Below the pieces are notes generated by a model that was given only the letters and a program-made list of their open reading frames with translations, was not told the origin of the DNA and did no database searches. The translations under genes were made by a program, and so were the position numbers. This document shows, in pieces, positions 3,175-64,000 of a stretch of DNA of 64,000 nt. The DNA comes from an uncultured Bacteroidales bacterium (lineage in GTDB: Bacteria > Bacteroidota > Bacteroidia > Bacteroidales > Muribaculaceae): positions 1 through 64,000 of the forward strand of contig CACXLJ010000016.1 of the NCBI GenBank assembly GCA_902768435.1, written 5' to 3'. The number at the start of each line of letters is the position of its first letter. Position 1 is the first letter of the stretch.

Positions 3175-3212
3175 AGTTGTAGCGATTTTATTGTGTGTTT
3201 ATGGTATGTTTT

Positions 3213-4712
3213 TTATAATTTCACTTTGGTTTGTGTGCCGTGCGGGCTCTCGTTGTTGCAGTGGTCGAGCGCCGTGACGACAAACACAAATTGCTTGCCC
3301 TTGGGCGCATACTGCGGCAGGGGCAATTGTGTGTCGCTGGTGATGGCGACAATGGCCTTGCTGTTGTTCAAGTCAATACGCTCGCCTTTTGCGAAACGGT
3401 ACACCACAAAGCGGGCTGCCTGCTGCAGCGGGTCGTTGGTCTTGGGGGCTTCCCAAACCAGCGTCTTCACCTTGTTGATTTTCTTCACCTTCAGGTCCTT
3501 CACCTCAGCGGGAGCAACATCGTCGAGCCACGGGTAGGTGGGTGGCAGCGCCAGGGTCGACTGGCGGCCGTTCATGAGCGAGTCGGTCACGCCCTTGTAG
3601 TTGGCGGTGAGGCTATAGCAGGGCCACCAGGTCACGCCCTGCACATTGTCCAGGCCTCGCATGATGCGCAGTTTGTGGTCGAGCTGTGTGGGGCAGGTGG
3701 GGTCGTCGGTGTCGGCATAGTCCATGGTGTTGCGGATGGCCAGGCCGTAGTACATGTGGCGGCCGTTGGTGTGGCGGTTCCACCAGTCCATGAGTATCGC
3801 ATCGCTCGCTTTGGGGTGCTCGAGCTGCCAGTAGAGCTGTGGCACCATGTAGTCGACCCAGCCCTCGGCGGTCCACTTGATGCAGTCGGCATAGAGTGCG
3901 TCATAGCACTGCAGGCCATTGGTGTCGCTGCCGTCGGGGTCGCTCGCCTTGTTGCGCCAGATGCCGAAGGGGCTGATGCCCAACCGCACCCAGGGCTTGA
4001 TGTCCATAATGGTTCGGTGCATGCCTGCGATGAGCGAGTCGACATTGGCGCGGCGCCAGTCGGCACGGTCCCAGCCTATGCCGTACAGGTCGTAGCTGGC
4101 GGTATCGGGGAATTCCTTGCCCTCGATGGGGTAGGGATAGAAGTAGTCGTCCATGTGTATGGCATCGACATCGTAGCGCGTGACAATGTCGGCGACCACG
4201 CGGCAAATGTGCTCGCGGCATTCGGGATAAGCGGGGTCGAAGTAGTTCTGCTCGCCATACTTGAGGAACCACTCGGGGTGCTGTTTGATGAGTGCGTCGG
4301 GTGCCAACTGGTGGTCGTAGCCCACGCGGTAAGGGTTGATCCACGCGTGCAGTTCCATGCCGCGCTTGTGACTCTCCTCAATCATCATCTGCATGGGGTC
4401 CCACACGGGTGTGGGAGGCACGCCGCCGGTGCCGCTCAGCCAGAAACTCCACGGCTCCAGATCACTCTGGTAGAAAGCATCGGCCTGGGGTCGGCAATGG
4501 AAAATGATGGCGTTGCAGCCCGCCATCTGCAGGCTGTCGAGCATGTTGAGCAGGTAGGCTTTGTTCTCGGCCGTTGTGTGCTTGGCGTAGTAGCGGTCGC
4601 CCACCGTGGGGATCCACACGCCGCGGAATTCGCGCTTGGGGTTATTCTGCGCCACAGTGCTTAGCGCAATGAGCAGCGCGCCAGCCAGGGCAAGGGTCCT
4701 TATAGATTTCAT
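3213..4712 (-). CDS. Glycosyl hydrolase-like 10 (GHL10/DUF187) secreted protein
   Basis: A 499-residue secreted protein with a signal peptide (about residues 1-21) and a TIM-barrel GHL10 domain at about 27-380. Hallmarks are the opening REFRGVWIPTV, the AWINPYR motif, the DAIHMDDYFYPYP segment with clustered Asp residues, and GISPFGIWR. Residues from about 400 form a fibronectin type III-like domain. The family is linked to peptidoglycan or polysaccharide processing, but the reaction is poorly defined. It is the first gene of a likely operon with the GH2 enzyme and has a good promoter at 4745-4776. Confidence 0.92.
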   Translation of the reverse strand: MKSIRTLALAGALLIALSTVAQNNPKREFRGVWIPTVGDRYYAKHTTAENKAYLLNMLDSLQMAGCNAIIFHCRPQADAFYQSDLEPWSFWLSGTGGVPPTPVWDPMQMMIEESHKRGMELHAWINPYRVGYDHQLAPDALIKQHPEWFLKYGEQNYFDPAYPECREHICRVVADIVTRYDVDAIHMDDYFYPYPIEGKEFPDTASYDLYGIGWDRADWRRANVDSLIAGMHRTIMDIKPWVRLGISPFGIWRNKASDPDGSDTNGLQCYDALYADCIKWTAEGWVDYMVPQLYWQLEHPKASDAILMDWWNRHTNGRHMYYGLAIRNTMDYADTDDPTCPTQLDHKLRIMRGLDNVQGVTWWPCYSLTANYKGVTDSLMNGRQSTLALPPTYPWLDDVAPAEVKDLKVKKINKVKTLVWEAPKTNDPLQQAARFVVYRFAKGERIDLNNSKAIVAITSDTQLPLPQYAPKGKQFVFVVTALDHCNNESPHGTQTKVKL

Positions 4713-4744
4713 AATAGTATAGGTGTAAATTGGGTTTTATAGCA

Positions 4745-4776
4745 CAAAGTTAATGTTTTGAAACTTTTTTAGCAAA
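4745..4776 (-). promoter_or_regulatory. Promoter of the GHL10-GH2 operon
   Basis: On the minus strand a -7 box TAACTTTG (4745-4752) lies 20 nt from an upstream TTTG (4773-4776), matching the Bacteroidota sigma-70 consensus. The expected transcription start is near 4738, about 25 nt before the ATG. Confidence 0.7.
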
Positions 4777-4812
4777 TTGTGCGTCACAATTCATGAATAT
4801 TCACTATTTTTG
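4777..4812 (+). promoter_or_regulatory. Promoter of the TerB-like gene
   Basis: A -7 box TATTTTTG sits at 4805-4812, with a TTGTG about 23 nt upstream. It is back to back with the GHL10 promoter; the two upstream elements are adjacent, so one regulator could control both. It places the transcript start near 4820, which rules out the upstream ATG at 4793. Confidence 0.55.
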
Positions 4813-4834
4813 CTCAACCCAAACACGAAGAGCG

Positions 4835-5176
4835 ATGAAAGAACTGCCTAAGTTTAACGATGGCGAGCGCGCGGCGCTGGTGAGCCTGCTGCTCGAGATG
4901 GTGAATGTGGACCACAGCGTGGCCTACGAGGAACTGATTGTGACCAACAACATTCATTCGCGATTCAGCATCAGCACCAACGATTTCAATGCCGGCCGCA
5001 ACCTCGACCCCGTGCATGCGCTCTATGTGGTCAAGAACATGACCGATGTGCAGAAACGCACCGTGGCGCAGCTGCTGGTGGAGGTGATTGACGCCGACGA
5101 GCTGGTGACCGACGAGGAAATCAACCTGCTCAACTTCATCTGCACCGCCACCGGCCTCGACCTCCTCTTCCCCTAA
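4835..5176 (+). CDS. TerB-like small helical protein, 113 aa
   Basis: A 113-residue acidic helical protein without signal peptide. Acidic patches such as DADELVTDEEIN resemble the metal-binding TerB/TerB-like fold associated with tellurite resistance and stress, but similarity is weak and the role is unknown. I chose the ATG at 4835 because the in-frame ATG at 4793 lies upstream of a well-formed -7 box (4805-4812). It stands alone: the next gene (Fic) is convergent. Confidence 0.75.
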   Translation: MKELPKFNDGERAALVSLLLEMVNVDHSVAYEELIVTNNIHSRFSISTNDFNAGRNLDPVHALYVVKNMTDVQKRTVAQLLVEVIDADELVTDEEINLLNFICTATGLDLLFP

Positions 5177-5223
5177 TTACCCTATTGCGACGTTTAGTCC
5201 GTCAGTCGCAATTCTTTCTTTTG

Positions 5224-6246
5224 TTAAAAATAGGTTTCGACTGCAAAGCGATATTGGTCAATGAATATCTGCTTGAACGCAAATATATTGTTCTGCTCAT
5301 AAAATAGTAGCATCGCTTTCTTGTAGTCAATACTGTCAACAGTCCGAAATGAGATTGGGCAATATCCATTGGCTATGAGAATGGCATTGGCACTAATCCG
5401 GGCAATGCGTTTATTGCCATCGTTAAAAGCTTGGATGTATGATAAAAGCAATAATGCATAAAGAGCCTTCTCAAACACGTTGTCACGGCTATTGATTAGG
5501 TCGCATGCCTGCTGAAGCGCTTCTCTAATCTGGAATTCATTGTCAATAGGGCGATAATTGGTACCTGTGATGCCAACGCGCCGAGTGCGAATGTTGCGCT
5601 GAATTGACAGGTCTTTAATCAGCAAACTATGAATATCCTCTATGCGTGATACAGAAAGATGTTCCATATAGTCGGGATTCTCAACAATGAAATCAAGGGC
5701 ACTTTTATGATTGAGTAGCATAATTGCCTCTTCTTTAGTCTTGCCCGATGCGGTTTGCTTCTCACGCAATAGTCGTTCTGTCTCAAGTAACGAATAAGTG
5801 TTACCTTCTATTTGTGAAGATTTCCAGCTCAAATCTATTCCCAATCTTTCCATCTCCTTTTGTTTCTCCTCAGGAGAGAGTGTTCGAATATTCTTTGAAA
5901 ACTGGTCTTGGAGAGCATTCAGCAACATCATTTCTGTGGATGTAAACAAATTAACCCGGCTCAACACATTTGGAATCAAATCAAAATTGTAACCAGTCAG
6001 CACTTCGCGTTCATCAATTTCTTTACTATAATATTTGTCCATATCAATGGGCATGAATAAAGAAGAAGCTGTGTAGCGTGTGGCCCTGGCTTTTCCTTGA
6101 ACAGTGACATAATAATTATCAACCAATTCACCAAGCATTCTCTTGACGGTGGAGAGGCTTACTTCATCAGCAAATACTTCACTGATTTGTTTGCTAGAAC
6201 AGTTTGGATGTTCCTTGATATAATCTAATAGAGTGCTCTGATTCAT
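5224..6246 (-). CDS. Fic-domain protein with N-terminal winged helix; catalytic His replaced
   Basis: A 340-residue protein. Residues about 5-60 look like a winged helix (SLSTVKRMLGELVDNYYV), suggesting DNA binding. The Fic domain follows, with an inhibitory-helix-like SSQIEGN at 143-149 (pattern S/TxxxEG/N). The active-site loop reads IQAFNDGNKR (271-280) where canonical Fic proteins have HPFxxGN(G/K)R, so the catalytic His is Gln272 here. Phosphate-binding residues (DGNKR) are kept. Classical AMP transfer therefore looks unlikely, although nucleotide binding may remain. It is alone, with no Doc/Phd-type antitoxin next to it. Confidence 0.88.
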   Translation of the reverse strand: MNQSTLLDYIKEHPNCSSKQISEVFADEVSLSTVKRMLGELVDNYYVTVQGKARATRYTASSLFMPIDMDKYYSKEIDEREVLTGYNFDLIPNVLSRVNLFTSTEMMLLNALQDQFSKNIRTLSPEEKQKEMERLGIDLSWKSSQIEGNTYSLLETERLLREKQTASGKTKEEAIMLLNHKSALDFIVENPDYMEHLSVSRIEDIHSLLIKDLSIQRNIRTRRVGITGTNYRPIDNEFQIREALQQACDLINSRDNVFEKALYALLLLSYIQAFNDGNKRIARISANAILIANGYCPISFRTVDSIDYKKAMLLFYEQNNIFAFKQIFIDQYRFAVETYF

Positions 6247-12375: not shown

Positions 12376-12429
12376 CCCTGAGAGAAAACCATTTTTTTTA
12401 AAAAAACATTGAATTGGATAAATAACTCA

Positions 12430-14376
12430 ATGAAACTCAACAGACTTTTGAAAATCACCCTTGGCATGGCGTTGACGACCTTCATGGCCAGTGCCGAGCC
12501 ATTTAATGTCGACGGACTGTATTATGAAGTGCTTTCGTCCAACGAGGTAGCTGTGGTTGCCTCGCCCGATGGCACTTATCAGTCGATTAACGATGTGAAC
12601 ATACCCGACAAGGTTGAACACGATGGCAAGCCATATAGCGTGACGCGCATTGCCGCTGGAGCCTTTGAGGGCGCTCAGGTGCAGACGCTCACCATCTCGT
12701 CGGCAATTACCGAGATAGGACCACGGGCATTCATGAACTCGTCGTTAGCCATTGCCACGCTCAACGAGGCTGGCGATGTTCCGCTCACGATTGCCGACTC
12801 GGCGTTTATGGGATGCCGCTACCTCTACACAGTTAGTCTTCCGGAGCGACTTGAGTCGATTGGTGCCGATGCCTTTAAGCGCTGCAACCTTGAAAACTTG
12901 GTTATTCCCCGCTCGGTGAAAAGCATGGGGAATTCGGCTTTCTCGCAAAACTATAATCTGATGTCGGTGGAGTTTGAAACCGGCCGCAGTGTTCCTGTTG
13001 CGTTAGGAACCGATCTTTTTTCGAATTGTGTGGAACTCAACACCGTAACGCTTCCCGAGGGAGTCGCCATGTTGCCACCGCGCACATTCATGAACACCGG
13101 TTTCACCGAGTTCACCATTCCTGCTACACTCGACACGATTGGCGTACAGTGTTTTGGTTCGTGCGGAAACCTGGAGACTGTAAACTGTGAAGAGGGTGGA
13201 ACACACCCGTTCATTATCCAAGACAGTGCCTTTAGCGAGTGCATAAGCATGTATCACTTCGATATGCCCAAGCGCACGAAGTCGCTGGGCGACTACGCTT
13301 TTTATAACAATAACCAGATGACCATGTTTCTCGTCAGGGAGAATGTGGAAACAATAGGCGAATATGCCTTTGGGCACTGCTCATCGATGATTGAGTTTTC
13401 GCTTGCGCCCGATATTCCGCCCACGACTGCGGCCACAGCGTTCTTTGATTTGTCGCCCCGTGTATTATTCTATGTTCTGGAAAAAAGCTTTGACCGATTT
13501 GCTGGCCTGGAAGCCTGGGAACGCTTCTATCCGGCTAAGTTCAATATGCTCTTGTATCATTCCGACACGGCTCCTTACAACACACTGTGTGTGACCAGTG
13601 AGATGAATCCGTCGTTTGTGAACATGACCAACATCAAGGCCTACAAAGTCAAGGAGGTGAATAAGGACAGGAAACGCGTTGTTGCCGAGCAGGTGCGTTT
13701 TGTGGTGGGTAACAAGCAGCCTCAAGGCGATTGCGTGATATATCATTTTATTACACCCGACCGAATTGCTCGCTGCAACCGCCACAAGTCATCGAGCCAA
13801 TCCAATCCTGACGAATATCTGCATGGCGTGACGAAATGGTCTGATAAAATCATGCAGCCGGCCGACCCCAATGTAACTTACTACACCATTAGCCGCTCAA
13901 CCGGCAAGTGGCGCAAAGTGCAGGCGGGTGGCACTTATCAGAGCAAGAGCCAGGCCTACCTGTGCGCTAACATACCGCAGGCCGAGGCCCCCGATGAACT
14001 TGAAATGACACTCATCGATGTACATATAGTGGGCGACCTTAATGGTGACGGCGCTACGAATGTGACCGACTTGAGCATCATGATGAACATGCTGCTGGGC
14101 GTTGAACCTGTTAACCTGGAAGTTGCCGACCTTGATGGCAATGGCACGCTCAACACGAGCGATGTGTCGCTCATGGTGTCGGTGATTCTTGGCCTCAAAA
14201 TCAAGGCTGGTGACCTGAACTTCGACGGTGTGGTCAATGTGAGCGACTTGACTGAATTGGTCAATATGATAATGGGAATTCAAAATGTGAAACTCAAGTA
14301 TGCTGACCTTACCGGCGACGGCAAGGTGAATGTGAGCGACCTCACGGCCCTCGTCAACATCATTCTTGGTGTTTGA
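12430..14376 (+). CDS. Secreted BspA-like LRR protein with two dockerin-like modules
   Basis: A 648-residue exported protein: signal peptide (about 1-22), BspA-type LRR_5 repeats (about 40-370) with the usual phrases such as GDYAFYNN and IGEYAFGHCSS, a beta-rich linker domain (about 375-530), then four dockerin half-repeats (GDLNGDGATNVTDLS, ADLDGNGTLNTSDVS, GDLNFDGVVNVSDLT, ADLTGDGKVNVSDLT). This gives two complete Ca-binding dockerin-like modules. BspA relatives bind host proteins or other cells; dockerins classically bind cohesins. I used the ATG at 12430 because the upstream in-frame start is only TTG. It lies 54 nt after the DJ-1 gene. Confidence 0.9.
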   Translation: MKLNRLLKITLGMALTTFMASAEPFNVDGLYYEVLSSNEVAVVASPDGTYQSINDVNIPDKVEHDGKPYSVTRIAAGAFEGAQVQTLTISSAITEIGPRAFMNSSLAIATLNEAGDVPLTIADSAFMGCRYLYTVSLPERLESIGADAFKRCNLENLVIPRSVKSMGNSAFSQNYNLMSVEFETGRSVPVALGTDLFSNCVELNTVTLPEGVAMLPPRTFMNTGFTEFTIPATLDTIGVQCFGSCGNLETVNCEEGGTHPFIIQDSAFSECISMYHFDMPKRTKSLGDYAFYNNNQMTMFLVRENVETIGEYAFGHCSSMIEFSLAPDIPPTTAATAFFDLSPRVLFYVLEKSFDRFAGLEAWERFYPAKFNMLLYHSDTAPYNTLCVTSEMNPSFVNMTNIKAYKVKEVNKDRKRVVAEQVRFVVGNKQPQGDCVIYHFITPDRIARCNRHKSSSQSNPDEYLHGVTKWSDKIMQPADPNVTYYTISRSTGKWRKVQAGGTYQSKSQAYLCANIPQAEAPDELEMTLIDVHIVGDLNGDGATNVTDLSIMMNMLLGVEPVNLEVADLDGNGTLNTSDVSLMVSVILGLKIKAGDLNFDGVVNVSDLTELVNMIMGIQNVKLKYADLTGDGKVNVSDLTALVNIILGV

Positions 14377-30140: not shown

Positions 30141-30307
30141 TTTTTAATTGATTGATTACTTTAAAGAGCATCGGAAATGCGGTCTGCCGAATATTTGACT
30201 ATGTAAAATCGATTCAACATTGAAATTCAAGGATTTTCGCAACTTGGTTATATTCCAAATCGAGTAACTTACTTTATAAAATAATTTAATAAAAAATGAT
30301 AAACGAA

Positions 30308-32764
30308 ATGAAAACAAAACTACTTAAACCCATTTGGCTGGCGGCAGTGCTATTGCTGCTAACAGCTTTGCCATTAACGGCCACTACCTACTACCATATT
30401 ATAGAGGCCGCATCACCCGAAGACTTTATAGTCAATGGGTTTTGCTATAGTATAAACAAGGATGGCACTTCGGTTACACTGACGCTTTGTGGTAGAATAT
30501 CACAAACCTACTGGGGTTTAACTGATGTAGATATCCCGTCAACAGTGACAATAGGCAGCCAAACTTACTCCGTCTCCTCCATCGGCAGCGGTGCGTTCTA
30601 TGGTTGCAGCGGCTTGACCAGCGTTACCATCCCCAACTCTGTCACCTCTATTGGCTACGCTGCGTTCCGTGATTGCAGCGGCTTGACCAGCGTCACTATC
30701 CCCAACTCCGTCACTTCCATCGGTGAATCTGCGTTCCGTGATTGCAGCGGCTTGACCAGCATAACCATCCCCAACTCCGTCACTTCTATCGGTTACGCAG
30801 CCTTCTCTGGATGCACCAGCTTGACCAGCATAACCATCCCCAATTCCGTCACTTCCATCGGAGGCTCTGCTTTCAATAATACTCCCTGGCTGAACAATCA
30901 ACCCGATGGTTTGGTTTACGCTGGCATGGTGGCATATACATATAAGGGTACAATGTCCGAAGGAACAAAAATCTCAATAAAAGAAGGAACAAAGGCAATT
31001 GCTGACTATGCGTTCCGTTATTGCAGCGGCCTGACCAGCGTCACTATCCCCAACTCGGTGACATCAATCGGCCAAGATGCGTTCTCTGGTTGCACCAGCT
31101 TGACCAGTATCACTATCCCCAATTCCGTCACTTCCATCGGTAGAGGTGCGTTCAATGGCTGCACCTGCTTGACAAGTGTCTCCATCCCCAACTCTGTCAA
31201 TTCAATAGGTAAAGAGGCGTTCCACGGTACAGCTATATGGAACAATTCTCCTAATGGTGTGTTTTATGTCAATGATTGGGTCTGTGGCTATAAAGGGGAC
31301 AAACCTAGTGGCCACTTGGAGTTAAGCGAAAAAGCAAGAGGTATCTGCGGAAATGCATTTGAATATTGCAGTTTGACAAGCGTCTCCATCAAACCCGGCT
31401 CAGTCAAATCCATTGGCGAGGGAGCGTTCTCTGGCTGCAGCGGCTTGACTAGCATCACCATCTCTGGTTCAGTCAAATCCATTGGCGAGGGAGCGTTCTC
31501 TGGCTGCAGCGGCTTGGAATCAATAGTCGTGGACAGCGATAATAATAAATACGATTCCCGTAACAATTGCAATGCAATCATTGAAAAAGCAAGCAACACA
31601 TTAATAAAAGGTTGTAAAAACACAATTATCCCCAACTCCGTCACCAATATCGGCCAAGATGCGTTCCGAGATTGCACTGGTTTGACCAGCATCACCATTC
31701 CCAATTCCGTCACTTCCATCGGAGAGAGGGCGTTCTATAATTGCAGGGGCTTGACTAGCGTCACCATTCCCAACTCCGTCACTTCCATCGGTAGCGGTGC
31801 GTTCTATGCTTGCAGCGGCTTGACCAGCATCACTATCCCAAACTTTGTCACCTTCATCGGCAGCGGGGCGTTCAATAGTTGCAGCGGCTTGACCAGCATC
31901 ACCATCCCCAACTCCGTCACTTCTATCAGCAACTGGGCGTTCTATGGTTGCAGCGGCTTGACCAGCGTCTCCATCCCCAACTCCGTCACCAATATCGGCC
32001 AATCTGCGTTCCGAGATTGCACTGGTTTGACCAGCATCACCACCCCCAACTCCGTCACCTCCATCGGCGCCTATGCGTTCAATGGCTGCAGGGGCTTGAC
32101 CAGCATCACCATCCCCAACTCCGTCACTTCCATCGGTTACTTTGCGTTCGAGGGTTGCAGCGCATTGGCAAATGTACATATAACAAATCTAGCAGCATGG
32201 TTTAATATTTATTTTTTTGACATTAATTCCAATCCTCTTTACTATGCTAGTCATTTATTTTTAAACGGCGCTGAAATCAAAGACCTTGTTGTCCCAAACT
32301 CAGTAACATCAATCGCTGAATATGCGTTCCATAAATGCAGCAGCTTTAATACAATAGTTTTAGGTGAGAAAGTTAAGGAAATTGGTGAAAATGCTTTTGC
32401 AGGAGCCAACAATCTCAAAAGCATTACTTGCAAGCGATTTCGTCCCGCTGCTATTCAAGAAAACACTTTCTCGGATAAAGCTTATTCCAATGCCACACTT
32501 CGTGTGCCCAAAGGGAGCCTTTCGTTGTATTATGTCACAACTGGTTGGATGAAATTCGACAACATTGTGGAGGATGATGAAGAAGTTATTCCTGGCGATG
32601 CGAACGGCGACGGTAAGGTGAATGTGAGCGATGTGTCGGCATTGATTAACATGATTCTTGGTGTCATTCCCAAAGATGAGGCTCGTGCCGACATCAATGG
32701 CGACGGCAAAATAAACGTTTCCGATGTTACAGCACTCATCAACATCATTCTCGGCATCAGCTAA
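30308..32764 (+). CDS. Secreted BspA-like LRR protein with C-terminal dockerin-like module
   Basis: An 818-residue exported protein; signal peptide about 1-26. About 18 LRR_5 repeats of 23 residues (consensus GxxAFxxCSGLTSVTIPNSV) run in blocks separated by two non-repeat inserts near residues 195-235 and 310-345. Residues from about 762 form a dockerin-like pair (GDANGDGKVNVSDVSALINM, ADINGDGKINVSDVTALINI). The underlying 69-nt DNA repeats are almost identical, so copy number probably changes by recombination. Surface adhesion or host-protein binding is the usual role of the family. The ATG at 30308 is preferred over 30296. Confidence 0.92.
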   Translation: MKTKLLKPIWLAAVLLLLTALPLTATTYYHIIEAASPEDFIVNGFCYSINKDGTSVTLTLCGRISQTYWGLTDVDIPSTVTIGSQTYSVSSIGSGAFYGCSGLTSVTIPNSVTSIGYAAFRDCSGLTSVTIPNSVTSIGESAFRDCSGLTSITIPNSVTSIGYAAFSGCTSLTSITIPNSVTSIGGSAFNNTPWLNNQPDGLVYAGMVAYTYKGTMSEGTKISIKEGTKAIADYAFRYCSGLTSVTIPNSVTSIGQDAFSGCTSLTSITIPNSVTSIGRGAFNGCTCLTSVSIPNSVNSIGKEAFHGTAIWNNSPNGVFYVNDWVCGYKGDKPSGHLELSEKARGICGNAFEYCSLTSVSIKPGSVKSIGEGAFSGCSGLTSITISGSVKSIGEGAFSGCSGLESIVVDSDNNKYDSRNNCNAIIEKASNTLIKGCKNTIIPNSVTNIGQDAFRDCTGLTSITIPNSVTSIGERAFYNCRGLTSVTIPNSVTSIGSGAFYACSGLTSITIPNFVTFIGSGAFNSCSGLTSITIPNSVTSISNWAFYGCSGLTSVSIPNSVTNIGQSAFRDCTGLTSITTPNSVTSIGAYAFNGCRGLTSITIPNSVTSIGYFAFEGCSALANVHITNLAAWFNIYFFDINSNPLYYASHLFLNGAEIKDLVVPNSVTSIAEYAFHKCSSFNTIVLGEKVKEIGENAFAGANNLKSITCKRFRPAAIQENTFSDKAYSNATLRVPKGSLSLYYVTTGWMKFDNIVEDDEEVIPGDANGDGKVNVSDVSALINMILGVIPKDEARADINGDGKINVSDVTALINIILGIS

Positions 32765-32849: not shown

Positions 32850-35519
32850 ATGAGACATCAAGTATTTATTTTTCTGTTTTTAATCTCCTTTGGAATATGG
32901 CATGCTAACGCAGAAGGCGAAGGTTATGTGTTTATGTATAATGGATTCCGGTTTCATGGGACTGGAGGAAATGACAATGACCCATCGAGAGGTGTTGCGT
33001 CTTTGCTTCCCGATGATTCATACAACTCAAATTTTGCAGGCAAACATGTGGAAATACCAGCGGTTGTTATATATGAGCCTGGAATGTATCATTTTCACTA
33101 TTGGGTCACCGACATCAGCAATAACGCATTAAGTTACTGCAAAATGACTAGCGTCACCATCCCTGGTGGAGTCAAATCTATCGGCGACCGTGCGTTCGAG
33201 CATTGCACTGGCTTGACCAGTATCGATCTCCCTCCGAGTCTTAATTCACTTGGTGACTATGCATTCTATTATTGCACTGGCTTGACACATGTCAATATCC
33301 CTCGCATCACCTCAATTGGTGAAAGTGCGTTCTATTATTGCACCGGCTTAAAAAGCGTAAACATCAGTTATGGTCTCGAAAGGATTGGTACTCAAATGTT
33401 TTTAGGTTGCTCTAACTTAAACAGCCTCACCATAGGTGCTAGTGTCAACAGAATAGGCTTATGGGCTTTTGGGGGTTGCAATAAATTGAAAAAGATAGTC
33501 AGCTATATAGCTGATCCTAATAATGTAATATACGCCACAAGTAATGGTCATCAGCCTACTTTTCAAAGTGTTGACAAGAATAATTGTAAACTTTATGTTC
33601 CATTGGAATCTATTAATCTTTATAAAAACCATGAACAATGGAAAGAATTCATTAACATTTATCCAATAACATCATCAATTACACTGAATAAGAATAACCT
33701 TTCCATGGCAATTGGAAACACTGAGACCTTATCAGCAACTGTATTACCGGAGGGAGCAGACATCTCCGAGTTTTCATGGACTTCAAACAATCCGTCAGTA
33801 GCCACTGTTGACCAGAACGGGACTGTAACCGCAAATGGACTTGGGTCGACCACCATAATGGTGACAACGATTGATGGGGCGGCCAGTGCATCGTGTAATG
33901 TTACAGTTTATGAAACTGAAGTGGAAGATTTTGAAACCATGCCCACAACAACCAGCACTTCGGCTCAAAATGTAAATGGACATTGGTCTTATTGGTCCTT
34001 CACTAATTGTAACGTGACTGCGCCTGGCAACCAAATGTGCAACGGCACTCAAGCAGTGGCCATGATGTTGCCGAGCAATATAGAAAGCGATGACACCTAC
34101 TACGATGCTTATCAACTATCGGTAAATGTTTTTAACCAAACTAACAACGACGCCAAACTAAAACTAAGCTATTCTGTTGATGGCGGTTCCACTTGGAATG
34201 TGGCTAAATCTGAAACAGGCGAAACATCGATTACCATCAGCAAGAACTCTACCGCCACACCCACATGGGTTCTATCAACAAGTAAGACTGTACCCACTCG
34301 CTATCGCATTCAACAAATAGCAGGAAACGAAAACAACCCTATTTATATTGACAACATCACCATTTTCTACACAGCCAAAGGAACACCTCCACCCATAATT
34401 GAAGACTTTGAAACCATGCCCGCCACAACCAGCACTTCGGCTCAATATGTAGAGGGGCGTTGGGCATTCTGGTCTTTCACAAATTCCAACGTGGCTGAAC
34501 CTGGTAGCGGACTTTGCGACGGAAATCGGTCAGTATCCATGAATATGCCATGTCTTATTGAGAGCAGTGATACATACTATGATGCATATCAACTATCTGT
34601 TAAGGCATTTAACAAAACCAGCACCGATGCCAAACTCACCCTCAGCTATTCTGTTGATGGTGGCACGACTTGGAATGTGGCCAAATCTGAGTCAGGCGCA
34701 ACATCGATTACCGTCGGCAAGAACACAACAGCCACACCCACTTGGGCTCTATCAACAAGTAAGACGGTACCCACCAGCTATCGCATTCAACAGATAGCCG
34801 GTAATAAGAACAACCCTATTTATATCGACAACATTACCATTTGTTATACTGCAAAGGGTGCACCGCCTCAAAGTCTTGAGGACTTTGAAGCCATGCCCAC
34901 AACAACCAGCACTTCGGCTCAAAATGTACAGGGACGTTGGGCTAACTGGTCATTTACCAAGTGCAATGTGGTGGCACCAGGTAGCGGGATGTGTAATGGC
35001 ACGCAAGCGGTCGCCATGAAGTTGCCCAGCCAGATAGAATGTAGTGATACTTACTATGATACCTATCTATTTACAGCCAAGGTGTTCAACACAACAAGTA
35101 CTGACGCCAAACTCACTCTTAGTTATTCAGTCGATGGTGGAAACACGTGGAAAGTGGCAAATTCTGCAACAGGCGCATCATCAATTGTTATCAGCAAGAA
35201 CTCTACCGCCAAGCCCCTATGGTTGATTTCTGCTAGCAAGAGAAAACCTACTCGATATCGTGTTCAGCAGATAGCCGGAAACAAAAACAACCCCATCTAT
35301 ATAGATGACATAACTCTTTACTATACTGCTGTGGGCTCTCCTGATGAGGGTGATGTGAATGGCGATGGCAAGGTGAACGTGAGTGATGTGACCGCTTTAA
35401 TCAACATGATTCTGGGGGTTATTCCTAAGGATATGGAAAGAGCCGATGTGAATGGTGATGGGAAAATCAACGTGAGCGATGTCACCGCTCTCGTCAACAT
35501 CATCCTAGGAGTCGTCTAA
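32850..35519 (+). CDS. Secreted multidomain protein: LRR, Big_2, three sandwich repeats, dockerin
   Basis: An 889-residue exported protein: signal peptide (about 1-21), LRR_5 repeats (about 95-245), a Big_2-like Ig domain (about 270-352; SITLNKNNLSMAIGNTETLS, ATVDQNGTVTANGLGSTTIM), then three near-copies of a roughly 155-residue module (about 355-510, 512-668, 670-828), each opening with EDFE(T/A)MP(A/T)TTSTSAQ and holding KLxLSYSVDGG and YRIQQIAGNxNNPIYIDxIT. A dockerin-like pair ends it (GDVNGDGKVNVSDVTALINM, ADVNGDGKINVSDV). The modules resemble jelly-roll carbohydrate-binding folds; that is inference. It follows the previous LRR gene by 85 nt. Confidence 0.9.
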   Translation: MRHQVFIFLFLISFGIWHANAEGEGYVFMYNGFRFHGTGGNDNDPSRGVASLLPDDSYNSNFAGKHVEIPAVVIYEPGMYHFHYWVTDISNNALSYCKMTSVTIPGGVKSIGDRAFEHCTGLTSIDLPPSLNSLGDYAFYYCTGLTHVNIPRITSIGESAFYYCTGLKSVNISYGLERIGTQMFLGCSNLNSLTIGASVNRIGLWAFGGCNKLKKIVSYIADPNNVIYATSNGHQPTFQSVDKNNCKLYVPLESINLYKNHEQWKEFINIYPITSSITLNKNNLSMAIGNTETLSATVLPEGADISEFSWTSNNPSVATVDQNGTVTANGLGSTTIMVTTIDGAASASCNVTVYETEVEDFETMPTTTSTSAQNVNGHWSYWSFTNCNVTAPGNQMCNGTQAVAMMLPSNIESDDTYYDAYQLSVNVFNQTNNDAKLKLSYSVDGGSTWNVAKSETGETSITISKNSTATPTWVLSTSKTVPTRYRIQQIAGNENNPIYIDNITIFYTAKGTPPPIIEDFETMPATTSTSAQYVEGRWAFWSFTNSNVAEPGSGLCDGNRSVSMNMPCLIESSDTYYDAYQLSVKAFNKTSTDAKLTLSYSVDGGTTWNVAKSESGATSITVGKNTTATPTWALSTSKTVPTSYRIQQIAGNKNNPIYIDNITICYTAKGAPPQSLEDFEAMPTTTSTSAQNVQGRWANWSFTKCNVVAPGSGMCNGTQAVAMKLPSQIECSDTYYDTYLFTAKVFNTTSTDAKLTLSYSVDGGNTWKVANSATGASSIVISKNSTAKPLWLISASKRKPTRYRVQQIAGNKNNPIYIDDITLYYTAVGSPDEGDVNGDGKVNVSDVTALINMILGVIPKDMERADVNGDGKINVSDVTALVNIILGVV

Positions 35520-39156: not shown

Positions 39157-41070
39157 TTATGCCCGCATGAAATCGGCGGGATTGAGCTTAGGCGTGATTG
39201 GCGTCTCGCTGGCGACCAATAGCGCTATGCCCCGCGACATGACAATGTCGTCGTGCTTGCCGTCGACAGCGCCATGCTTGCCGCTGGGCTTGAGTTCAAA
39301 CCAGCTGTACTCGTCGATGGCGTCGTGGTCATGCTCGATGTAGAGACCGTCGCGAATCCAAGCGATGAGCAGGTCCACGATACGGCCCTTAGTGTCCTTG
39401 TTGGTGTGGAATCCAGGCTGCTTGTTTTTCCTGAGATAGAAATTGCTGTAGCGGTGCCTGATGAAATCAAGGATGTTATTGGCCTCGTTGCTCTCGTCCT
39501 TGACGCGGTCGAGCGAGTTGCTCTCAAAAACGAGCAGCGCATTGTTGTAGTAGGTGGCGAGTTGCGCCGCTTTCCATGCCAGCCGGTCGTGGTCGATGTG
39601 GCCGCGCCATTGCGCCACAACCTCGGGTTTGAGGGCGCGGTCCTCTTTGCGGTCGAGCACGGTAATGACCGAGTAGTCGGCCTTGTCGGTGCGTCCGCCA
39701 ATGTCGACGGCGACAATGTAGCGCGACTTGAATTGTGACTTCACGGGCTGCGCCCAGATTTTGAGTTGTCGGGTCAAATCTTTATTGAGCGCTATGTTGC
39801 TCAAGGTGTAAGGCGGGTTCGAGATGATGTCGCCCATGAAAAGTGGCGGGCGGCAGTCGCGTCGCATGGCATCGAGCCTTTCAAGGTCGAAGATGCAAGT
39901 GCCCGAGTTGGCAAAGGCCTCGATATCGGTAGTAGGAAACTCGGCCATCATCAGGTGGTGGCTGGGGTAGGCTTTGCGCTTATTGTGATACCATTGAATC
40001 TTCTCGAGGGTGCAGCCGTGATGGTTCCACAAGTTGCGCTCATACTCGTCGAGCGACATCCACAACGCATAAGGGTCGGCTACAGGCTGGCAATAGATCT
40101 CAATCTCGTGCCAGGGGACAAATACGGGCTGCTTGTCGCTCTTGCCGTTGCAGGCATCAAGCCACTGGCTGTGAAAGAAACTGCCCATGCCGTTGGCAGT
40201 GGATTCGAGCACAATCATGGAGAGGTCGCCAAGCAGAATGGTGCCGTCGACCGACCGAATAATGTCGAGCGGGTCGTGATGCGCTCCCTTGGGCCAAAAG
40301 GCGACTTCGCTCAGGTGTGCCATTGCCACATCGTATCCGCGCACGGCATCCTCGCTATAGGCCGAGCCCATGATCACGAGGCAGCCGCGAGGCTCGATGA
40401 GTTGGGTTTGGCTGCTGCCCTCAAAGTTGCGGAATTGGAGTGGCTTCCCATTTTCGAGATACTCTTTGGGATAATAGCGAAGCAATTTGGTATACATGCC
40501 CTTGATGGCGCTTGAAGTGTTGCGCTTTTGCCCGCAGATGAGGCTGTTCCAGTTCTTGCGCAGCACAATTTGAATCCATGCCATGTACATGAGTATCAAG
40601 GTGGAACCTCCCCACTGGCGAGCCTTGAGCAAGATGAGGCGGATGCCGTTGCCCGACTTGCGCTGGCGTTCGAGTTCGGCCAGCACACGACGCTGTGCTG
40701 CGTTGAGGTGCAGTTTCACATTGCGGCCGCTCATCTTGTCGCGCACTGTGGCACAGGTGGCGCACCAGAATTCAAAGTCGTAGTGCATTCGTGCCTTGTT
40801 GAATTGCATGTGGTCGGCAGTGATATCGTGCGGCTGTTCCTGGAGCATTTCCTCAGGCACCCAAACATTGCCGAGCCCTTCGACCTGTGTGCAAATGCGA
40901 TTGCCACAAGCACCTTGGCCGATGATAGGGTCATAGATTGTTTTGAGTGCCTCGTTGCGCCTGGCGTTTTCCTCCACAAGATTCTCGGGAATCTCGATGG
41001 CAGTGATTTCTTTATCAAGTGAATCATTTGCCGGAGTTTTATCTTGATGATTGAGTTTTGTGTTTTTCAT
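39157..41070 (-). CDS. Orphan phage terminase large subunit-like protein
   Basis: A 637-residue protein with the two-part layout of terminase large subunits. ATPase: Walker A-like LLKARQWGGST (Arg/Gln-rich form used by some terminases) and Walker B AHLSEVAFWP. RNase H-like nuclease: AVDIGGRTDKADYSVITVLDR and the late acidic DGKHDDIVMSRGIALL. These cut and package phage DNA in complete phages. No portal, capsid or small terminase gene is nearby, the frame is intact, and it has its own near-leaderless promoter (-7 box TAATTTTG, 41075-41082). It may be a domesticated or relic phage gene. Confidence 0.8.
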   Translation of the reverse strand: MKNTKLNHQDKTPANDSLDKEITAIEIPENLVEENARRNEALKTIYDPIIGQGACGNRICTQVEGLGNVWVPEEMLQEQPHDITADHMQFNKARMHYDFEFWCATCATVRDKMSGRNVKLHLNAAQRRVLAELERQRKSGNGIRLILLKARQWGGSTLILMYMAWIQIVLRKNWNSLICGQKRNTSSAIKGMYTKLLRYYPKEYLENGKPLQFRNFEGSSQTQLIEPRGCLVIMGSAYSEDAVRGYDVAMAHLSEVAFWPKGAHHDPLDIIRSVDGTILLGDLSMIVLESTANGMGSFFHSQWLDACNGKSDKQPVFVPWHEIEIYCQPVADPYALWMSLDEYERNLWNHHGCTLEKIQWYHNKRKAYPSHHLMMAEFPTTDIEAFANSGTCIFDLERLDAMRRDCRPPLFMGDIISNPPYTLSNIALNKDLTRQLKIWAQPVKSQFKSRYIVAVDIGGRTDKADYSVITVLDRKEDRALKPEVVAQWRGHIDHDRLAWKAAQLATYYNNALLVFESNSLDRVKDESNEANNILDFIRHRYSNFYLRKNKQPGFHTNKDTKGRIVDLLIAWIRDGLYIEHDHDAIDEYSWFELKPSGKHGAVDGKHDDIVMSRGIALLVASETPITPKLNPADFMRA

Positions 41071-59828: not shown

Positions 59829-61604
59829 ATGAAAAAACAAAGACTCTTATTCATGCTGGCGACCCTGGCACTGCTGTTGAGCATTCCAGGTGCAGCGTCG
59901 GCTGTTGTCGACAAGAAGCAGGATGTGAAACGCAACACTTCGGCACGCTTCGATCAGCCTATGACTATCGATGCGCCCGACTTCAAGCCTTCGCAACCGG
60001 CTGTCGACAAGAAAGGCGCTCAACCCAGCGCCAATGATGTGAGCCGGGCACCGCAGCGCGCAACCGGCGAGACTGTTACTGTGAATGGTGTGAGCTTCGT
60101 CATGGTTCCCGTGCAAGGTGGCACCTACACGCGTGGCGCTACCGAAGGTCAAGGGACCGATGCCACATCGTCTGAGAAGCCGACGCACTCCGTTACGGTC
60201 ACAAGTTTCTCGATGGGAGCCACCGAGGTTACCCAGGAATTGTGGCAGGCTGTAATGGAGTATAACCCCAGCCGCTTTACCGGCGACATGCAGCGCCCCG
60301 TGGAAATGGTGTCGTATCTCGACTGCCAGGCCTTCATTTACAGGCTCAATGAACTCACGGGCCGCCACTTCCGCATGCCCACCGAAGCCGAGTGGGAGTA
60401 TGCTGCTCGTGGTGGTCAGTACAGCAGCGACTTCATGTATGCTGGTGGCACAAGCCCCAATCCCAATGCATGGTATAGCGAAAACTCCTATGAAACCACC
60501 CACGCCGTAGCCACCAAGATGCCCAATGAACTGGGTCTCTACGACATGAGCGGCAATGTGGCCGAGTGGTGCCAGGATGCCTGGGCCTATTACAGCGATT
60601 TCGGACAAGATGCACCAACCATCAATCCCTGGATACGAGCAAATACCACCTATCGCGTGATAAGAGGTGGTGGCGCCCTGTCGGCTGCATCGGCTTGCCG
60701 TGTCTCGGCCCGCAGCGAGAACAACTGGGTGAATCGTGATGTCGCGCTTGGTTTCCGCCTTGTGCTGAGCGACATGCAAGGAACCAACATCTCCTTCATG
60801 AAACAGAACCACCAAATGAAAGTCAACGCCACCGATGTGACAGTTCCCGTGGCCATTACCCGTGGCAATACCCAGGGCACCTATACAGCCGAGGTGGAGG
60901 TGAATGCCGACGACATCAGTATCACTCCTCTGCAAATGGAGAATGTCACCTTTGCCGAAGGTCAAAGCATAGCCTATGTGAATGTGCCTTTCCAGAATAT
61001 GACACCTGGCAACACCTACACCTGCACGCTCTCCCTCTCGGCCTCCGATGCCGAGACTGCTAATCCCGAGTATGGCGAGCAGATTCTATCCACCACCGTT
61101 CAGGTTACCTGCGACTATCAATGGGTTGCCTGCGCAACCGCAACAATGACCGACGGAAGTAGCACTCCAGCCGCCGAAGCCGAGGTCGCCGTTGAGCATG
61201 CTGTGGGTTCCAATCGCTATCGACTGGTTGCCCCGCTCTACGCGCTCTACAATGGTGAGGAGGATAATATCGACATGAGCAACTTCGAGTTCTTGCTCGA
61301 CAATGACCTGAACATGACCATCGAAGATGGCTATTACCTCAACTATTGGGGCTATCAGATGTACTACTCCGCAACAGATTATCCCACCTACTGCAATGTG
61401 GAGAGAAGTGGCGACACCTATACGGTGAAATTCCTGTTAACAGCTCAAAACTCCACCAGCCCTGCTTATGTGGGCGGTCCCTGGACTTTGACGTTCAACT
61501 GGAATGCGGGCTCTCTTGCACCTGCCACCCCAAAGGCGGCTAAGCCGGCATCTGATTCCTTGAGAAAGAAAGAACTTGTTCCATTTCATGAAATTAAAAA
61601 GTGA
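59829..61604 (+). CDS. Secreted SUMF1-like (formylglycine-enzyme family) domain protein
   Basis: A 591-residue exported protein; signal peptide about 1-25. SUMF1-like domain at about 90-320: FVMVPVQGGTYTRGA, EVTQELWQAVM, FRMPTEAEWEYAARGG, LYDMSGNVAEWCQDAW, YRVIRGGG, GFRLV. The two copper-binding Cys of active formylglycine enzymes are absent in the ACRVSARSENNW segment (one Cys, in a different place), so it is probably a binding protein, not a sulfatase-maturation enzyme. Two beta-sandwich-like domains fill 325-575. Its stop overlaps the next start (ATGA, 61601-61606 region), so translation is coupled. Confidence 0.85.
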   Translation: MKKQRLLFMLATLALLLSIPGAASAVVDKKQDVKRNTSARFDQPMTIDAPDFKPSQPAVDKKGAQPSANDVSRAPQRATGETVTVNGVSFVMVPVQGGTYTRGATEGQGTDATSSEKPTHSVTVTSFSMGATEVTQELWQAVMEYNPSRFTGDMQRPVEMVSYLDCQAFIYRLNELTGRHFRMPTEAEWEYAARGGQYSSDFMYAGGTSPNPNAWYSENSYETTHAVATKMPNELGLYDMSGNVAEWCQDAWAYYSDFGQDAPTINPWIRANTTYRVIRGGGALSAASACRVSARSENNWVNRDVALGFRLVLSDMQGTNISFMKQNHQMKVNATDVTVPVAITRGNTQGTYTAEVEVNADDISITPLQMENVTFAEGQSIAYVNVPFQNMTPGNTYTCTLSLSASDAETANPEYGEQILSTTVQVTCDYQWVACATATMTDGSSTPAAEAEVAVEHAVGSNRYRLVAPLYALYNGEEDNIDMSNFEFLLDNDLNMTIEDGYYLNYWGYQMYYSATDYPTYCNVERSGDTYTVKFLLTAQNSTSPAYVGGPWTLTFNWNAGSLAPATPKAAKPASDSLRKKELVPFHEIKK

Positions 61605-64000
61605 TGATTATGAAACGATTTCGCAATACAATAATACTGGCCTTGGCGGCACTGGCTGCCAACACGGCCATGGCCTTCGACTTTGTTCAAGATGGCATTT
61701 ACTATAACATTCAGGCCGATGGTGTGGAAGTGACCTACAAGACGCTGGGAGAATGTGACAACTATAGCGAGACAGTGAACATTCCTGCAACAGTGTCCTA
61801 TCTTGGAACCACCTACGATGTGGTGAGCATTGGCGACTATGCTTTCTCTGGTTGCGTGGGCCTGAAACAGGTGTCGATACCAAACACGGTGAACTACATT
61901 GGCGTGTGTGCCTTTGCTGGTTGTGCCTGGCTCGAGAGTATTTCAATTCCTGCTTCAGTTACCTCGATAGGTCTGCAGGCTTTTAACCACTGCATGAACC
62001 TCCAGAACATGACAGTGGCAAGTGGCAACGCTTTTTATGATTCTCGCAATGGCTGTAAAGGCATTGTCGAGAAAGCTACCAGCCAACTCATTGCCGGCTG
62101 CCAGAAGACCATCATTCCCACATCGGTCACCTCGGTAGGTGCCTATGCATTTGTGGGTGATGTGAAGCGTAACTACATTACCATCCCCAATTCGGTAGAC
62201 TCTATCGAAAACTACGCCTTTCAGGAATGTCTCTCTTTGAATCGCATCACCTTGGGCTCATCGCTCAAGAAGATCAAAGATTATGCCTTTATTAATAACA
62301 TCAGATTGGCTTCGGTGGCAATCCCCAACTCAGTGACCCACATCAACGATTATGCTTTCAGTCAGTGTTATAATCTTGAAGACGTGACCTTTGGCAACTC
62401 GCTGCAAGAGATAGGATACTCAGCTTTTAATGGTTGTGAGAGCCTGACGAGCCTCACCATTCCGGCTTCGCTCAACAAAATAGGTGGTTTGGCATTTGCC
62501 TACTGTCCCTCGTTGGAGAGCATTAAGGTTGAGAGCGGAAACGCTACCTATGATTCCCGCAACAATTGCAATGCCATTATCCAGAAGAATGGCAATATGT
62601 TGCTTGTGGGCTGCAAGAACACCTCCATCCCTGGAACAGTAAAGGCTATTGGCGATAATGCATTTGCTGGAGCATCCACCATGACGAATATCACGATTCC
62701 CGCTTCGGTAAATAACATTAAATATAATGCCTTTATCGACTGCAAGAATCTGACCAATGTCTATAGTTTAATTACACATTTCTCTGACTTTGAATATGGT
62801 GAAGGTCTCTTCTTTGGTGTGCCTGTTCCTACAAGCACCCTGCATGTGACTTATGGTACCAAGATGTATTATGAGCAGATGGACCAATGGCGCGACTTCA
62901 ATGTTGTTGACAATGCTGTGGAGCCAGGCGATGCCGATGGCAATTTCGATGTGAATGTGATGGATATCACCCGCATCATCGATCTCATCATGAATGGTGG
63001 TTATGAAGTTAATGCCGATGCCAATTGCGATGGCGAGCTGGATGTGCGTGACCTCACTGTAGTTATCGATCGCATCATGAATGGTCCCGATGACTATCAG
63101 GCTGAGTTCGGGCTATACAGCGTCAACACGGTGTATCGCTCGATGCACACCGCCGGCTGGTCGACCACCCGTAGTAACACGCACCAGTGCTTCGGCATCA
63201 GTGCCTATAACCTCATGGCCGAAGTGATGGGCGACGACATGATTATGGCTGCTGCCGGTTCGGGATGGTTCTGGTACGATGCCACCTATGCGGTCAAGAA
63301 CCGTTATACCAGCAGTGGTTGGCGCTCCTATGACTTGTGGAATGCCTATTACACCTGGATTGGCAATGCCAACCGCCTCATCAGTAACGAGAGCACGATG
63401 ACATCGGCCAGCGCCAAATATGTGCTGGGACAGGCCTATGCCATCCGCGCTTACTCCTACTTTATGCTGGCCCAGTCGTTTGCCCGCACCTACAAGGGAC
63501 ATGAGTCAGAACCTTGTGTGCCCATTTACACGGGTACCTCATTTGCAATGAACACGGGCACTTCACGCGCTACGGTGGCGCAGGTATATCAGCAGATCGA
63601 TGCCGACATTACCAAGGCCCTACAACTGCTTGCTGGCACCACACAGCAGAATCCCGCTCACATGGGACTCGCTGTTGTGCAGGGACTCAAGTCACGCATT
63701 GCACTTGTCAAAGAAGACTGGAGCACTGCGCTCACTGCTGCCGAGGCTGCTATTGCTGCCAGCGGCAAGACAATCGCCGAAGTGCCTTCGTTCATGGGCC
63801 TCAACGATGCTACTGCTCCCAATGTGATGTGGGGTGCAATGATCGATGATGACCATGCTGGCGCTTATGCTTCATTGTTCGCACACATGAGCCAGAGTAT
63901 CGCTTATGGTCAACGTGCTCCCAAGCAAATCACGGCCTCGCTCTACAACAAGATGTCGGCCACCGATGCACGTCGTGCATGGTGGGATGAGAATGCTTAT
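61604..64000 (+). CDS. LRR-dockerin-SusD fusion protein (3' end beyond window)
   Basis: The frame from ATG 61604 (or 61610) is open to the edge, 799 codons. Order: non-lipid signal peptide (about 1-25, ANTAMA), BspA-like LRR_5 repeats (about 30-410), dockerin-like pair (about 443-498; GDADGNFDVNVMDITRIIDL, ADANCDGELDVRDLTVVIDR), then a SusD/RagB-like region (about 505 on) with NRLISNES, the hallmark YVLGQAYAIRAYSYFMLAQS and VAQVYQQIDADITKALQLL. SusD proteins bind glycans beside a SusC pore. No SusC precedes it. It directly follows the SUMF1-like gene with overlapping stop/start. Confidence 0.9.
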   Translation, partial: MIMKRFRNTIILALAALAANTAMAFDFVQDGIYYNIQADGVEVTYKTLGECDNYSETVNIPATVSYLGTTYDVVSIGDYAFSGCVGLKQVSIPNTVNYIGVCAFAGCAWLESISIPASVTSIGLQAFNHCMNLQNMTVASGNAFYDSRNGCKGIVEKATSQLIAGCQKTIIPTSVTSVGAYAFVGDVKRNYITIPNSVDSIENYAFQECLSLNRITLGSSLKKIKDYAFINNIRLASVAIPNSVTHINDYAFSQCYNLEDVTFGNSLQEIGYSAFNGCESLTSLTIPASLNKIGGLAFAYCPSLESIKVESGNATYDSRNNCNAIIQKNGNMLLVGCKNTSIPGTVKAIGDNAFAGASTMTNITIPASVNNIKYNAFIDCKNLTNVYSLITHFSDFEYGEGLFFGVPVPTSTLHVTYGTKMYYEQMDQWRDFNVVDNAVEPGDADGNFDVNVMDITRIIDLIMNGGYEVNADANCDGELDVRDLTVVIDRIMNGPDDYQAEFGLYSVNTVYRSMHTAGWSTTRSNTHQCFGISAYNLMAEVMGDDMIMAAAGSGWFWYDATYAVKNRYTSSGWRSYDLWNAYYTWIGNANRLISNESTMTSASAKYVLGQAYAIRAYSYFMLAQSFARTYKGHESEPCVPIYTGTSFAMNTGTSRATVAQVYQQIDADITKALQLLAGTTQQNPAHMGLAVVQGLKSRIALVKEDWSTALTAAEAAIAASGKTIAEVPSFMGLNDATAPNVMWGAMIDDDHAGAYASLFAHMSQSIAYGQRAPKQITASLYNKMSATDARRAWWDENAY

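Follow-up and report, generated by a model that had tools for sequence, protein, structure and literature searches.

SusD/RagB proteins (PF07980, PF14322) are outer-membrane lipoproteins of polysaccharide utilization loci, and SusD is seen as a lid to the SusC pore. Dockerin-cohesin systems, in turn, both cellulosomal and non-cellulosomal, are described from Clostridium and Ruminococcus, and the metaproteome of a rumen Ruminococcus is reported to contain proteins that join LRR_5 repeats to a type I dockerin (PMC7480376). Within the Bacteroidetes, a study of the camel rumen reports dockerins and tandem cohesins in bins of this phylum (PMC6071333). Here we analyze a gene pair at the right end of a 64,000-nucleotide stretch (the window; bases 1-64000 of the 165-kb contig C16) in the genome of an uncultured Bacteroidales bacterium from the rumen (G000; 2.75 Mb, 99.9% complete). 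The first gene encodes a SUMF1-like protein, and the second a fusion of BspA-type leucine-rich repeats (LRRs), a dockerin pair and a SusD domain (Table 1). For comparison we used genomes of the same genus; the related records are mostly rumen metagenome-assembled genomes (MAGs).

We consider it probable, though far from certain, that this gene pair derives from a SusCD glycan-uptake unit that was dismantled and rebuilt as part of a dockerin-cohesin surface network. The sequences show the architecture of the pair, its ancestry and conservation, the loss of both SusC and the lipobox, the presence of cohesin homologues, and a dockerin that changed in step with others of its species. The fusion is most likely a SusC-independent surface glycan-binding protein that is plugged in by its dockerin, although surface location, dockerin-cohesin binding, a glycan as the ligand and joint action of the two proteins are predictions. 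Like the SusD/RagB lipoproteins, the fusion has a complete SusD domain and is close kin of SusC-partnered SusDs. Unlike them, it has neither a lipobox nor a SusC, and it is joined to LRRs and a dockerin.

Table 1. Coordinates of the features discussed (window positions unless a contig is named)
Feature	Position	Strand	Length	Basis or detail
SUMF1-like gene, non-lipid signal peptide, fused to SusD-operon third-gene module	59829..61604	+	591 aa	
SUMF1/FGE domain (C-type-lectin-like), Ser in place of first catalytic Cys	60102..60764	+		
Calx-beta domain, homologous to third gene of SusC-SusD operons	60774..61124	+		AF2 model, structure match
C-terminal beta domain, exchanged relative to sister species (dS saturated)	61116..61514	+		
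LRR-dockerin-SusD gene	61601..64000, cut by window end, runs to C16:64510	+	970 aa	
Signal peptide without lipobox	61601..61675	+		
TGATG stop/start overlap	61602..61606	+		stop TGA 61602-61604, ATG 61604-61606
BspA-type LRR_5 region	61676..62908	+		Pfam
Dockerin pair, internal, class-B type	62924..63079	+		profile scans
SusD domain	63098..64000, on to C16:64510 (~aa 500-970)	+		Pfam, PDB homologues
Two tandem LRR-dockerin-cohesin-T9SS-like-tail genes	C17, L186 (G000:C17:50000-64000)		~618 and ~692 aa	

A preliminary description, made from the window alone, had proposed that one continuous frame joins the three modules. This proposal holds for the complete gene, whose single open frame begins at 61601 (GTG) or 61604 (ATG) and remains intact beyond the window. 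Searches of the full protein with profile models match LRR_5 (four stretches; Pfam, 1e-70), a dockerin and SusD (SusD-like_3, 1e-17, 65.5 bits; SusD_RagB, 3e-13, 50.3 bits; both above cut-off), and the SusD domain has homologues in the PDB (3snx, 3lew and 3kez). As was also described, the signal peptide, MKRFRNTIILALAALAANTAMA, is of a non-lipid type, with no cysteine in the signal region. The dockerin pair lies at residues 442-493; its Dockerin_1 match (442-492) scores 18.1 bits in a scan of the protein (cut-off 22.9) and 23.5 bits, above the cut-off, in a scan of the genome, so it belongs among type I dockerins but is borderline by score. Both of its calcium loops retain D/N ligands. No C-terminal sorting domain of the type IX secretion system (T9SS) was found on the fusion in Pfam and NCBIfam scans; the protein ends in the SusD domain.

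This fusion is one member of a larger lineage. Dockerin-SusD proteins occur in about a quarter of the approximately 90 same-genus genomes, most commonly as proteins of about 950 aa, usually encoded downstream of glgB, in which a signal peptide is followed by a dockerin, SusD, Calx-beta-like domains and a terminal domain. A susC gene lies upstream of none of 26 dockerin-SusD genes, versus 52 of 56 ordinary SusD genes (the other four are a remnant in G046, two genes at contig edges and one unmatched within the distance limit). Similarly, a lipobox is found in 0 of 25 dockerin-SusD proteins versus 41 of 55 ordinary SusDs. The dockerin therefore sits where the lipid anchor and tether were. The ordinary relatives are lipoprotein SusDs encoded in SusC-SusD operons, in which a third gene, for a lipoprotein of about 270 aa, often comes next. 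Two regions are homologous to this third-gene lipoprotein: the extension at the C-terminus of dockerin-SusD proteins and the C-terminal half of the SUMF1-like protein. For the latter, homology was seen to the gene that follows SusD in 25 ordinary operons. Both window genes therefore derive partly from a single SusC-SusD-third-gene operon. A phylogenetic tree favors a single origin of the dockerin-SusD lineage (81/99; approximately unbiased (AU) test, p 0.744, log-likelihood better by 17). A first quick tree had implied two origins, but we dropped this interpretation because the more careful tree and the AU test favor one.

It might seem that the fusion still serves as lid to a SusC pore from another locus, e.g., on contig C11, with its LRRs and dockerin as additional adhesive modules. 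Indeed, its SusD domain is nearly complete, with an alignment to ordinary SusDs that starts directly behind their lipid tether, and is about 62% identical to the SusD on C11, which has a SusC. However, the C11 SusC already has its own SusD, no dockerin-SusD locus includes a SusC, the lipid tether is gone, and the dockerin-SusD proteins form their own clade. The preliminary description had noted the lack of an upstream SusC, and there is none among the flanking genes on either side once the contig is extended rightward. We regard the lid hypothesis as quite improbable.

According to the preliminary description, absence of the fusion from all relatives would refute the proposal. In fact, the same gene pair, with the same architecture, occurs in a MAG of another species, Tb.RUG.442 (L069 = G151), with a SUMF1-like protein of 591 aa and an LRR-dockerin-SusD protein of 969 aa. 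Codon comparison of the two species yields ratios of non-synonymous to synonymous divergence (dN/dS) of 0.20 for the LRRs, 0.21 for SusD and 0.22 for the SUMF1 core, which indicates purifying selection. As the pair recurs in another species' MAG and is under such selection, the fusion is no artefact. We also considered that a chance deletion joined an LRR-dockerin gene to a SusD gene and that the product has no function selected as a whole. The many LRR-dockerin genes of this genome would fit such an origin. A third species (G046) retains the locus, but its SusD is a remnant, truncated at the 5' end, that lies beside phage-terminase-like genes; decay of the locus is therefore possible. However, purifying selection over both LRRs and SusD in two species with intact copies largely refutes this explanation. 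An LRR-dockerin-SusD protein is also present in G069 (1016 aa, without a SUMF1 partner), and the breadth of the dockerin-SusD lineage and the in-step dockerin change described below further argue against it. We judge a chance origin to be extremely unlikely.

Synonymous divergence (dS) between the two species is 0.93 in the dockerin, versus 0.34-0.44 in its flanks, and therefore this domain has probably been replaced or homogenised. We had initially read the difference as fast evolution of the dockerin, but the raised dS points to module exchange or concerted replacement. A second exchange is indicated in the SUMF1-like protein, whose C-terminal domain is replaced by a divergent homologue relative to L069 (dS saturated), while both flanks are about 86% identical at the DNA level; this domain was exchanged as a module.

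The genome contains 128 Dockerin_1 matches, which fall into two sharp classes: A (...NVSDV[ST]ALINMILG...) and B (...DVRDITALIDVIMN...). Within classes, the mean proportion of synonymous differences (pS) is about 0.5, and that of non-synonymous differences (pN) is 0.07-0.10, where selecting class members by sequence lowers pN. Given these large synonymous differences, the dockerins are not recent copies. The class-B signature has 55 matches in the genome of the window's species and none in 100 congeners (a reversed-pattern control also gave 0). We scanned the cargo of ten proteins per class. Class-B cargo included C10 and M6 peptidases and endonuclease I, class-A cargo consisted mostly of LRR proteins with one C10 peptidase, and no cellulase was present among these 20 dockerin-bearing proteins. 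The window holds class-A examples at 30296-32764 and 32850-35519, as well as an LRR protein (12409-14376) that ends in four tandem C-terminal dockerin repeats.

The Pfam cohesin model (PF00963) has no match in this genome, and 37 of 101 genus genomes have cohesins over the cut-off. We built a custom profile from the cohesin domains of the genus, which matches PDB cohesins (7e-6) and detects five cohesin domains in the genome (best 1.8e-32). Two of these belong to the tandem genes on C17 (Table 1), one of which carries a class-A dockerin and the other a class-B dockerin. The other three are in small cohesin proteins with a similar tail. The species represented by G151 has its own two dockerin classes with one cohesin protein for each, and an LRR-dockerin-cohesin protein was found in all four congeners tested. 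An AlphaFold2 (AF2) model of one such cohesin domain from the congener G069 (predicted local distance difference test (pLDDT) 69, from a three-sequence alignment) has cohesins as its top structural matches (VIA Z 12.6, root-mean-square deviation (rmsd) 2.4, 114 aligned). Signs of a T9SS in the genome are GldK (516 bits) and eight T9SS tails. A profile search of the genome revealed no multi-cohesin protein. Elsewhere, L151 (G054:C7) encodes four tandem cohesins and a C-terminal dockerin pair in one frame, resembling a scaffoldin. In L119, a C10-type cysteine peptidase is joined to Big_2-like, dockerin and cohesin domains (1821-5060), and this gene adjoins one for a small cohesin-dockerin protein (5053-5919).

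Among 45 dockerin pairs sampled from the genome, 43 are at the protein's C-terminus and one more is at most 20 residues from it. The exception is the dockerin of the fusion, which is 476 residues before the protein end. Dockerin-like repeats might thus be a C-terminal export or sorting tag, similar to T9SS tails, and the SusD fusion a client with an internalised tag. This hypothesis would fit the near-uniformity of the repeats in the genome, their placement at the very C-terminus of secreted proteins of many kinds, the ratio of approximately 128 dockerins to five detected cohesins, and the fact that no other export signal is known for dockerin-bearing proteins. However, the dockerin is internal or N-terminal in all dockerin-SusD proteins, the calcium loops are retained, cohesin homologues exist, and each of the two LRR-dockerin-cohesin proteins matches one dockerin class. 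We regard the tag hypothesis as unlikely.

Binding to a cohesin is instead suggested by residues that changed in step. In G000, 47 of 48 class-B cargo repeats have IDM at three helix positions, as does the class-B cohesin protein, and the dockerin of the fusion has IDM/LDM. In G151, the residues at these positions are VNL in 7 of 8 class-B cargo repeats and in the class-B cohesin protein, and VNL/VNL in the fusion. Because class A, too, most often has VNL, this comparison is distinctive only for the IDM of G000. As a control for dockerin divergence we used the LRR-dockerin-cohesin protein, in which non-synonymous codons are only modestly more frequent in the dockerin (28 of 60) than in the LRRs (129 of 390); the window protein at 32850-35516 had no clear orthologue in G151 to serve as such a control. 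That an internal dockerin changed together with about two dozen unlinked C-terminal ones is best explained by a shared binding partner, though gene conversion could also produce it. The earlier suggestion that the dockerin attaches the unit thus gains support, both from this tracking of the species' class B and from the divergent cohesins with T9SS-like tails.

The partner protein resembles the SUMF1/FGE-like C-lectin proteins, which include TvpA, PorK/GldK and the formylglycine-generating enzyme (FGE). It shares their FGE-sulfatase fold (Pfam, 1e-40), and its best PDB match is the Treponema variable lectin TvpA (2y3c, 1.4e-31). Unlike them, it lacks one catalytic cysteine, carries the Calx-beta module of SusD operons and is coupled to a dockerin-SusD gene. 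The preliminary description had stated that the copper cysteines are absent. This is true of the first, which is a serine in the alignment to FGE, but the second pairs with a cysteine beside a 3-residue gap. The protein thus does not have the two catalytic cysteines of a formylglycine-generating enzyme. An AF2 model of the C-terminal module (pLDDT 90) consists of a Calx-beta domain, which matches 3h6a (VIA Z 11.8, rmsd 2.4, 101 aligned), and a second beta domain. To the latter we assigned no known fold, as the only matches, to B. ovatus surface proteins (3n91, 3sot), were weak and poorly superposed. We also rejected diversification by a diversity-generating retroelement in the variable region of the SUMF1 domain; codon changes relative to L069 are not adenine-specific, and no search for a template repeat was made. 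The proposal that SUMF1-like domains bind ligands fits with a lectin as the closest solved homologue and with a module akin to the third-gene lipoprotein. The overlap with the stop codon of this gene is as first described (Table 1), and the TGATG suggests translational coupling with the fusion.

Several observations weigh against our interpretation of the pair. In the protein scan the fusion's dockerin does not reach the Pfam cut-off, and it departs furthest from the canonical form among those sampled. The genome's own cohesins are divergent and escape the Pfam model. The fusion has neither a lipobox nor a T9SS tail that would account for its crossing of the outer membrane. In-step change could come from gene conversion among dockerins. 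Finally, the coupling to SUMF1 is limited to the window's species and one other. Thus, of the unit first envisaged, dockerin attachment and ligand binding by the SUMF1-like protein have been strengthened, and the gene pair does recur, but the pairing is not general, although dockerin-SusD proteins are common in the genus.

Judging by our reading of their sequences, the genes to the left of the pair encode MgtC-like and cation-antiporter proteins, and those to the right a small secreted protein, an M13 peptidase and others. A terminase-like gene (RQWGGSTL) is present at 39157-41070 of the window, at L063:6375-8252 and at L059:7013-8926, and adjoins a dockerin-SusD gene or SusD remnant in two genomes.

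In the history that the sequences show, a SusC-SusD-third-gene operon was dismantled, with the lipobox of SusD exchanged for a dockerin and SusC lost. An LRR array was added, and the third-gene Calx-beta module was grafted onto a SUMF1/C-lectin protein that is predicted to be translated in tandem with the fusion. After export by Sec, the class-B dockerin would hold the fusion at the cell surface, and most likely it would do so on the cohesin of an LRR-dockerin-cohesin-T9SS-tail protein. There it would sit beside secreted proteases, nucleases and LRR proteins with the same plug. SusD, the LRRs and the SUMF1/Calx partner would act as non-transporting binders of ligands or glycans, and fold and family suggest that the SusD part captures glycans.

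More tentatively, and with somewhat less than even confidence, we propose that the genus runs a non-cellulosomal dockerin-cohesin surface system. Its approximately 100 or more clients would include LRR adhesins, proteases, nucleases and SusD, sorted by two parallel dockerin codes, each matched by a dedicated LRR-dockerin-cohesin adaptor with a T9SS tail. One code or more would be private to a species, and clients, adaptor and recruited SusD would have changed together, such that each species would regain only the proteins it secreted itself. Like the systems of Clostridium and Ruminococcus, this one has type I dockerin pairs with calcium loops, cohesin homologues and LRR_5-dockerin proteins. 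It differs in that it belongs to the Bacteroidota, that the sampled cargo comprises C10 and M6 peptidases, endonuclease I and LRR proteins, and that its few, divergent cohesins go together with T9SS-like tails. The camel-rumen bins share its phylum, habitat and dockerin-rich genomes, but the available part of that study does not describe the SusD fusion, the dockerin classes or LRR-dockerin-cohesin proteins. In literature that covers few subscription journals and no preprints, we found no paper joining SusD and a dockerin in one protein; a search for LRR, dockerin and BspA together also found none, and in the portions of papers available there was no description of species-private dockerin classes.

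A genus-wide lineage in which SusD no longer serves transport, and apparently plugs into a cohesin network instead, shows a second way to use SusD. Two dockerin codes, one of them private to one species, offer a testable model for how bacteria in crowded communities keep the proteins they secrete, and orthogonal dockerin-cohesin pairs could be drawn from them. They also point to what may be going on in a genome that has about 128 dockerins but lacks a Pfam cohesin.

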